DNA of 48,192 bases from Verrucomicrobiia bacterium (GTDB lineage: Bacteria; Verrucomicrobiota; Verrucomicrobiia; Limisphaerales; UBA8199), in assembly GCA_035946615.1 (NCBI GenBank), contig DASYZB010000133.1, positions 1 to 48,192 of the forward strand, written 5' to 3'. Below the pieces are notes generated by a model that saw nothing but the letters and a program-made list of their open reading frames with translations, had not been told where the DNA came from and did no database searches. This document shows, one piece after another, positions 1 through 43,249 of this stretch. Within the stretch, counting starts at the first letter, position 1. Each line of letters opens with the position of its first letter. Made by a program: the position numbers and the translations under genes.

Positions 1-267
1 GCGCACCACTGATGCGGTGGCGACCCCGCGGTGGCGGATGCCGCGCATCTTATTGCTGTACCAGCCGTAGTAGCGGACCATTTGCACGCCTTTGTCGGGG
101 ATATGCTGCGTAATGGCCGCCAGGAAGTCGGTGGCGCTGAAAACCTCGAAGTTGCGGTTGATCTTGGCGTTGACCCGGGAGCAGTAGATAACGGTGTCTG
201 TGGGGGATTCCAGTGTCATCTTCTCGCTGCGGCGCATCATCGAGATGATCCGGGAAGGCGCTCTCTG
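1..267 (-). pseudogene. IS91-like (Y2) transposase remnant, C-terminal part
   Basis: Reading the minus strand leftwards from about 267 gives an open frame that runs off the window edge. It contains NRNFEVFSATDFLAAITQHI followed by PDKGVQMVRYYGWYSNKMRG, the strongly conserved C-terminal region of IS91/IS801-type rolling-circle transposases. The frame is closed upstream by a stop at 268-270, and the residues just before EKMTLESPTDTVIY look shortened compared with the family, so the N-terminal catalytic part is missing. It is therefore a relic or the truncated end of an element. A 42-base piece of the same sequence recurs at 43191-43232. Confidence 0.8.
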
Positions 268-547
268 TTATACCTTGGGGGGGAAAGTTACACTTCAAAG
301 TGTAACAGAAAATCCGCTGAATATAAGCGCCTTTATCGATAATGTTACATGTTACACTTCATTTTCACTTTCCCGCGCGCACAAGCTTTTTCCCCCTTTT
401 CCTCGCCGGCCGCCCACCGCCCACCGTCCAGCGGCAATCGCAAATTAAAAATCTAAAATCAAAATTCCCAACCTTTCGACTGTTGAGCGTTGGATGTTCG
501 CTCCCTGGATTCTTTTGTCTCCATCAAATCCTCATCGCGCTTTGATT

Positions 548-635
548 GGGACGGTTGGGACGCTCTGGGACGGCAGTGGGACGGTTGCAATAGTGAGAAT
601 CACCCGTGTTTACCGGCCTTGGGACGGTGGGACGG
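548..635. repeat. GGGACGG word cluster, spacing 9-11 bases
   Basis: GGGACG occurs at about 548, 557, 567 and 578, and again at 621 and 629. The spacing is close to one helical turn but not fixed. It lies in the same gene-free stretch as the exact 10-base arrays and may be an older version of the same process. Confidence 0.5.
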
Positions 636-770: not shown

Positions 771-820
771 TTGCACTTAATTGCACCTGGTTGCACCTAA
801 TTTCACCAAATTTCAGTTCA
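771..820. repeat. 10-base-period array on TTGCACCTAA
   Basis: Five consecutive 10-base units start at 771, 781, 791, 801 and 811. The first three share TTGCAC and the last two share TTTCA. The register is exact, with substitutions and no indels. Confidence 0.75.
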
Positions 821-910
821 CTCTTCTTCAGGCAGCCCCCCTTCGATGTTGAATGTTCGACAGACCTGAGCCTTTCTTTGCGTTCTCTGCGTTCCTTCGC
901 GGCAACTTCC

Positions 911-970
911 TCGGATAGCCTAGGATAACCTCGCCTCCGGCCCTTAGTAGCCTCGGATAAGCCTGGATAA
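911..970. repeat. 10-base-period array on GGATAACC/GCCTGGATAA
   Basis: GGATA recurs at a 10-base interval in two pairs (units at 911 and 921, then at 951 and 961), with a diverged 20-base stretch between them that keeps the register. It is the same kind of array as at 771-820 but built on a different word. Confidence 0.65.
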
Positions 971-1000
971 TCTCGTTTTTGACTCCTCACGCTCCGCGCC

Positions 1001-1040
1001 TATCCGAAGTCATCCGAGCCCATCCGATTCTATCCGGGCA
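1001..1040. repeat. 10-base-period array on ATCCGA
   Basis: Four units start at 1001, 1011, 1021 and 1031, each carrying ATCCG in the same place with variable flanks. The word is close to the reverse complement of the GGAT word in the 911-970 array. Confidence 0.75.
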
Positions 1041-1110
1041 AAAATGGCACTTACGTAATCGTCCACCCGACCCTGCGCACTCCCACTCCTAACCCCGCTC
1101 CAACAGGCCA

Positions 1111-1150
1111 TCTGACCAAATCTGAGTAAATCCGAGTAATTCTTTCACTC
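1111..1150. repeat. 10-base-period array on TCTGAGTAAA
   Basis: Three clear units start at 1111, 1121 and 1131 (TCTGACCAAA, TCTGAGTAAA, TCCGAGTAAT), followed by a weaker one at 1141. Confidence 0.7.
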
Positions 1151-18502: not shown

Positions 18503-18655
18503 AACCGCTGCTCTTCGCTAATCGAACGCTAAAAATGGCTCCCGCTAGCGTCCGGGGCATAGCGAGATCACGTTCAGTGAACTGCCTGGGTGTTCGATAG
18601 CTGCTGTCATATTTCACCTTTCTCATTAGCGATCATCAGCGCAGATTAGCGGTAC
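18503..18655. repeat. 10-base-period word ATTAGCG upstream of DUF2723 gene
   Basis: Units starting at 18621, 18631 and 18641 (TCTCATTAGC, GATCATCAGC, GCAGATTAGC) are in exact 10-base register. CGCTA, the inverse word, occurs at 18516 and 18527. This is the same kind of array as in the first kilobase. Confidence 0.6.
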
Positions 18656-29800: not shown

Positions 29801-29834
29801 CTAGACACGAATTTCACGAATTAGTACGAATTTG
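29801..29834. repeat. 10-base-period array on ACGAATT
   Basis: Units at 29801, 29811 and 29821 each end in ACGA(A), giving three copies of ACGAATT-like words in exact 10-base register upstream of der. Confidence 0.65.
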
Positions 29835-43190: not shown

Positions 43191-43232
43191 GGTGGCGCTG
43201 AAGACCTCGAAGTTGCGGTTGATCTTGGCGTT
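43191..43232 (-). mobile_element. 42-base IS91-like transposase remnant
   Basis: The sequence matches 130-171 at 41 of 42 bases. On the minus strand it encodes NAKINRNFEVFSAT of the Y2-type transposase. Nothing recognisable of the rest of the gene remains on either side. Confidence 0.75.
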
Positions 43233-43249
43233 AAGGGCCGTCAGCCCAT

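Follow-up and report, generated by a model that had tools for sequence, protein, structure and literature searches.

The window analysed here, a stretch of 48,192 nucleotides from a Verrucomicrobiia bacterium taken at its full length, is contig C133 of a 5.6-Mb genome in 161 contigs. The contig starts with a fragment of a Y2_Tnp (IS91-type) transposase gene (positions 1 to 240, minus strand; Pfam PF04986, E 1e-7), and an ordinary neighbour, the trigger factor gene (Pfam Trigger_N/C), occupies positions 1347 to 2663 of the plus strand. The island between the two (241 to 1346) contains 0 called genes according to our own hexamer-based gene calls, in agreement with the preliminary description of a gene-free kilobase, and neither Rfam families nor tRNA genes were found in the window. 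A second, short Y2_Tnp fragment match (15 residues, E 5e-4) lies at positions 43191 to 43235. Four partial matches to this family are present in the genome (C51, C99, C108 and the window), with relics at C18 and C32; the ends of an IS91-type transposon were considered as the origin of the arrays described below and rejected, since Y2_Tnp is not a general array neighbour.

The island is pieced together from dispersed modules, which turn up again in other islands, many of which are located at contig ends. Its features, all given on the plus strand, include two origin-like modules, followed by a dispersed TTCGATGTTGA-type repeat with a period of about 14 (698 to 743), a first array with a period of 10, in which the word TTGCAC is joined to a variable 4-bp spacer (771 to 815), and a TTTGCGTTC-type sequence with a period of about 9 bp (872 to 903). 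The latter has matches in 7 of 39 relatives' genomes (8 of 40 with our own); no other part of the island gave a match to relatives in the DNA search. Two 10-spaced pairs of GGATA (913/923 and 955/965, within 911 to 970) are inverted relative to the period-10 array that comes next, which has the word ATCCGA and the spacers AGTC, GCCC and TTCT (1002 to 1036). An RNA structure formed by this inverted TCGGATA/ATCCGA pair was considered and set aside (fold z-score of -0.91, not notable). The third period-10 array, with the word AATCTGA (1110 to 1142), is followed by TTCTTTCACTCATG, which resembles the TTTTTTCACCCAGATG preceding a TerS-like relic at C40. Between the arrays and the trigger factor gene there is a dispersed segment (1180 to 1262), of which copies 98-99% identical were found at C19 and C111.

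Period-10 arrays and their unit structure

A period-10 array was defined by a lag-10 score of at least 10, a threshold reached at 771 to 815 (17.5), 1002 to 1036 (10.0) and 1110 to 1142 (13.0, scored with the word as ATCTGA), in all three cases without indels. Among 500 dinucleotide-preserving shuffles of the island, 499 held no period-10 array and one held a single array. The preliminary description had counted four main arrays with exact 10-base spacing, and three of them stand; in the fourth (911 to 970), GGATA occurs at 913, 923, 955 and 965, with spacings of 10, 32 and 10, and the lag-10 matches come to 24 of 50, so that it does not qualify as a 10-base array. Two distant arrays that it had added fail as well (18621 to 18650 with a score of 6.5, and 29801 to 29830 with 8 lag-10 matches out of 20). 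Its observation that each array uses a different word was confirmed.

In 79,357 bases of intergenic sequence, 57,279 of which came from stretches picked for matching the window (L009-L028), we counted 44 period-10 arrays, against 0.0 in five dinucleotide-preserving shuffles and 0.0 when scaled from genes. This is the largest excess among the intergenic periods tested. The same bases gave 22 arrays at lag 20 and 14 at lag 30, and the periods 7, 8, 14 and 9 were in weaker excess (18, 14, 12 and 8 arrays, respectively). The remaining 22,078 bases contained one array, located in L044, a stretch that itself matches the window and was added outside the regular series. That series (L029-L043, with 4 of the 19 requested stretches unavailable and several very short) had 0 period-10 arrays, and the arrays are therefore concentrated in islands. 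Shuffled intergenic sequence, which had been named in advance as the comparison that could refute the arrays, does not match the period-10 excess; chance as their source is ruled out by the dinucleotide shuffles, both for the island and for the 79,357 intergenic bases.

The unit of these arrays is composed of a fixed word of 6-7 bp and a spacer of 3-4 bp taken from a small set of sequences; AATCTGA, for instance, occurs with CCA, GTA or CTA, and AATCGGA with GGT or ACC. Where neighbouring units disagree, the mismatches are concentrated in about four of the phases. In our genome, the best 6-phase block holds 42 mismatches against a null of 71.4 ± 4.1 (42 arrays, many of which duplicate one another), and in the relatives it holds 10 against 19.4 ± 2.2 (13 arrays); neither value was attained in 2000 draws from the null.

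A TerS-like gene family beside the arrays

Next to the arrays at C46, C52, C23 and C143 there are copies or relics of a single gene family, referred to here as TerS-like, which was found at six places in this genome by protein search and at nine by profile. An array lies at the start or the stop of all nine profile matches, with six words between them: ATAACG at C46, AATCTGA at the C40 relic, ATTACGG at C38 (read by eye), CCAATAGACA at C74, TTTCCGC at C105, and ACGGTAA at C52, C23, C143 and C6. The PHROG 426 family (terminase small subunit) matches four of the six own members and, among the 24 that were aligned, 16 at E up to 0.01; the best match is at 7.8e-8, those of several members are weak, and no Pfam terminase match was obtained for the two members scanned. 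At C38 the gene is directly followed by TerL (Pfam E 1e-4, PHROG 5e-13), as it is at C105 (Pfam 2e-9, PHROG 1e-22), where a portal gene comes next (PHROG 1e-29) and where the array sits in the gap between TerS and TerL. With TerS, TerL and portal in a row, at least one copy therefore lies in a packaging cluster. The TerS-like protein of C105 had no match in the phage collection.

The predicted structure of the TerS-like protein is all-helical (pLDDT 82.7, pTM 0.52). Compared with the PDB, the predicted fold gave no significant match, the best being a phage TerS at E 1.9; none was found in the viral library at E 0.001, nor was there a sequence match in the PDB. Among the ACGGTAA copies, homology spans the gene and stops about 10-20 bp beyond the array, so that gene and array look like one travelling unit. 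At C23, a TerS relic and its array are followed by a DUF3631 relic and then by a copy of the first origin-like module of the window (module A, below). TerS-linked words also recur as orphans in islands (AATCTGA, ATAACG, ACGGTAA and ATTACGG, as well as GCGGAAA at C148, where the arrays were read by eye only). For eight array families of this genome, no TerS-like gene turned up next to the array (TTGCAC/AATTGC, AACCGGA, AATTAAG, ATCCGA, CGAGAG, CCGGAG, CACCGGT and AATGTA), and two of the window's three words are among these.

A profile search (E up to 1e-6) found the TerS-like family in 12 of 116 genomes of the order, including our own. The relatives' matches numbered 37, of which 26 loci were fetched and scanned and 11 left out. 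A period-10 array is present in the gene or in the 200 bp around it at 17 of these 26 loci in other genera (16 at a stricter score), and nine have none at the threshold. Altogether, these loci hold 21 period-10 arrays, against 0.7 expected from the flanks and 0.25 from shuffles in which letters were moved only within 60-base blocks; the next most frequent periods were 20 (10 arrays), 6 and 21 (6 each) and 12 (5). Thirteen of the 21 arrays are at or just past the 3′ end of the gene, six on its 5′ side and two between these positions. As a period of 10 is not a codon multiple, the arrays inside gene 3′ ends are a feature of the DNA level. The words differ among the relatives' loci, and the window's word ATCCGA was found at TerS-like genes in three of them (L249, L240 and L235). 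Six downstream genes were scanned in relatives, and no terminase was found among them.

Among viral contigs with a related TerS, a period-10 array was found at 1 of 45 loci, with 1.8 expected from the flanks, and among those with a related TerL at 2 of 29, with 0.4 expected; two of these three loci belong to the same contig. Related phages thus do not generally carry an array at the TerS gene, as would be looked for in a pac or cos site, and the arrays go with chromosomal, mostly solitary TerS-like genes. Phages were searched for evidence of a packaging role, and none emerged.

Origin-like modules and DUF3631 genes

Module A (287 to 360, plus strand) consists of inverted GTTACAC words, a framework and a tandem ATGTTACATGTTACACTT, and has blast matches at C103, C18, C23 and C131. 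Its word is GTTACAC in the window and GTTGCAC at C131 and C23. When C131:6457-6723 is compared with positions 287 to 360 of the window, the word is changed at the direct and inverted sites alike, as if the recognising protein had changed. Module B (546 to 635, plus strand), which was recovered by a layout scan, has four GGGACG words 9-11 bp apart, a framework with CGTGTTTACCGGCCT and a tandem TGGGACGG pair 8 bp apart, and its framework has six copies in this genome. The framework pattern CGTRTTTACCGGCCT was tried as a marker of the module and rejected: it matches in 20 of 293 genomes of the order, and the true module was seen only at the six own places and at one in G009 (by eye), the rest looking protein-coding.

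The layout of module B, with words about 42, 53, 64 and 75 bp ahead of a pair 8-9 bp apart and the framework between, gave 17 hits in 1.31 Mb (overlapping stretches included) against 0 in 2.62 Mb of sequence shuffled by letters within 200-base blocks. Two of the 17 hits are the two strands of one place in L192, that of L044 falls on a TerS-type word, and those of L187, L192 and L044 deviate from the usual distances. Module A was not picked up by this strict scan. Besides islands of this genome, hits lie at DUF3631 loci in three further genomes (L172 and L180, and L175, where the hit adjoins a duplicated fragment of DUF3631). In a Streptomyces plasmid (L183) the hit is at the end of the DUF3631 gene, and in the viral contigs L187 and L192 hits come just past it. 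A strict hit lies near 9 of 29 DUF3631 loci (3 of 4 own, 3 of 11 in relatives, 3 of 14 in phages, plasmids and viral contigs), and the words vary (TGGGAC, TGACGG, TGTAAC, TTAACG, TGTAGC, GGTAGC, GTTTCG and GTCACG). By eye, looser word clusters follow DUF3631 in a Pseudomonas phage and several viral contigs (L181, L182, L184, L186, L188, L189, L191 and L193), and none were seen in L190 and L195; a second TTAACG module of L175 and the CACGGCT and GGACGGAT modules of L171 and L177 were likewise read by eye only. In our genome DUF3631 occurs at four places, with array islands upstream at C62, C136 and C148 and module A downstream at C131. A search of the relatives' contigs with six DUF3631 peptide patterns found one relative and was uninformative on the spread of the gene.

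The DUF3631 family is that of RepAM, the replication initiator of actinomycete integrative conjugative elements, and the likeness to our case lies in the same Pfam family and in an initiator of integrated mobile elements (passages of PMC3218068). Those passages of the paper contain no word layout beside the gene, whereas here the layout is found beside DUF3631 in relatives, an actinomycete plasmid and viral contigs, and also as gene-less relics; no description of it was found in the titles and abstract openings searched on DUF3631. Modules A and B of the window have no initiator gene beside them, and they are best read as putative origins of the kind found beside DUF3631 (RepAM) initiator genes.

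A few further observations were made around these genes. Within the DUF3631 coding sequence of L175 (2215-2279; G009:C15), a period-7 repeat encodes a charged insert (SKVQSPRSEVRSPKSE), and period-7 arrays were common in the sampled stretches of relatives (25). At about 730-1190 of L175, between two copies of the TTAACG origin-like module, there is a HicA/HicB-like pair that we take to be a toxin-antitoxin system. In one relative, three DUF3631 genes (L171, L175 and L177) are closely preceded by a conserved operator-like palindrome, GGTGGGACAAAAACTGTCC. Upstream of DUF3631 at C62:54602-55496 and C148:38611-39845, a GC-rich hairpin (CCGGGC..GCCCGG and CCAGGC..GCCTGG, respectively) is followed by similar sequence.

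Possible readers and roles of the arrays

In TerS oligomers, neighbouring helix-turn-helix motifs are about one turn of B-DNA apart (passages of PMC4737164), and for this reason the 10-bp arrays are taken as TerS-like recognition arrays. We consider it probable that the exact 10-bp arrays are recognised by the TerS-like helix-turn-helix family, that word and protein diverge as a unit, and that the arrays of the window are orphans. The three of them are best read as having been left in a relic island from which the TerS-like genes are gone. Each helix-turn-helix of a TerS-like oligomer would read one word of 6-7 bp per helical turn, on one face of the DNA, and since the word changes from one gene lineage to another and stands at either end of the gene (5′ or 3′), word and protein would diverge together. 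The islands look like the remains of phage-satellite-like or prophage-derived elements, which may have had an initiator with iterons and a TerS with its recognition array. Arrays with a word-and-spacer phase structure often accompany the TerS-like genes, TerL stands beside two copies and a portal gene beside one; we infer that the protein binds the array, as a ring, for DNA packaging, and the role of the array is perhaps packaging (perhaps in satellites), autoregulation, or both.

This reading bears on what the preliminary description had proposed about the origin of the arrays. The best-supported of its proposals, albeit indirectly, is that a protein reads one face of the DNA, given the conserved word phases, the unconserved spacer phases and the way in which arrays track TerS-like genes. 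The statement that the arrays are not one transposable repeat is correct for the whole set, although each word family is in turn a dispersed repeat whose copies have flanks in common. A process that keeps the phase while changing the word is, in our reading, better replaced by divergence of the gene-plus-array unit than attributed to DNA copying. Very old decay of several repeats agrees with the islands being relics, but random decay would not place the variation in the spacer phases.

As a special case of TerS-like recognition, the arrays could be the packaging signals of full phages that are absent from the collections searched, a possibility that we regard as tentative. It draws on the TerS, array, TerL and portal in a row at C105 and on the pac site of SPP1, which contains direct repeats and extends across the beginning of the TerS gene (passages of PMC4737164); however, the 45 TerS and 29 TerL viral loci hold just one and two period-10 arrays where such signals would be expected. 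It is unlikely that the arrays are helically phased operators at a promoter, where the TerS-like protein or a different helix-turn-helix regulator would bind and so repress the gene that encodes it. The array does end few to some tens of bases before a start codon or relic start at C46, C38, C74 and the C40 relic, and the six 5′-side arrays of the relatives would fit, but at C105, C52, C23, C143 and C6, as in 13 of the 21 relatives' arrays, it coincides with the 3′ end of the gene, lies within that end or follows it, and an array in that position cannot control the gene's own promoter.

Two other explanations appear very improbable to us. Neutral tandem slippage would have the repeats arise by replication slippage in gene-free DNA and now decay, and the periods 7, 8, 9 and 14 are indeed above the shuffles in this genome, period-7 and period-14 arrays are common in the relatives' stretches, and the islands are relics. 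However, slippage would not favour a period of 10 with many words, would not place the mismatches in a fixed four-phase spacer, and would not track one gene family, with 21 arrays seen where 0.7 were expected from the flanks. Nor do we give much credit to all arrays being origin iterons of DUF3631-type or other initiators instead of TerS sites: the layout in which words stand about 42, 53 and 64 bp ahead of a pair spaced by 8-9 bp has its 17 hits in 1.31 Mb against 0 in 2.62 Mb of shuffled sequence, and several hits adjoin DUF3631 genes. However, neither that layout nor its framework is present in the strict 10-bp arrays, whose neighbours are TerS-like genes instead, and one layout hit (L044) itself falls on a TerS-type word.

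A more speculative idea, and in our opinion quite an unlikely one, is that the islands are cis-only parasites that hold arrays for many TerS-like proteins and origins for several initiators, and are kept because any passing helper would replicate and package them. The word of the ladder, read once per turn by a TerS-like ring, would then be a specificity code that differs between packaging systems. Phage-inducible chromosomal islands such as SaPI and P4 combine in one element an initiator with an iteron origin and their own TerS with a packaging site, a combination of initiator/origin and TerS/site that the C23 relic resembles. Unlike them, the islands described here are gene-free relics, and no integrase, capsid-size or induction gene was recognised by eye among the genes that flank them.

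A close likeness is to the pac site and TerS of SPP1 and SF6, where direct repeats also lie at the TerS gene, and where the helix-turn-helix motifs are displayed around the oligomer about one helical turn apart, with DNA wrapping proposed. In contrast, the passages of PMC4737164 describe three sets of direct repeats (boxes A-C) and not a ladder, together with a domain of SF6 TerS that binds with little sequence specificity; in our case the words are exactly 10 bp apart and differ between gene lineages. The TAACTGA repeats of Beggiatoaceae are likewise intergenic direct repeats, often found just before start codons, but they are heptamers of one word, as described in passages of PMC4679880, compared with a period of 10, many words and one gene family in our case. 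In the titles and abstract openings searched on TerS repeats and periodicity, on Verrucomicrobia intergenic repeats and terminase, and on satellites with TerS and pac, no description of phased word ladders at TerS-like genes was found.

A ladder of equal words one helical turn apart is what a ring of DNA-reading domains could use, and the TerS-like genes with their arrays offer natural protein-site pairs for specificity swaps. Reading by TerS-like proteins would also explain a class of puzzling intergenic repeats.
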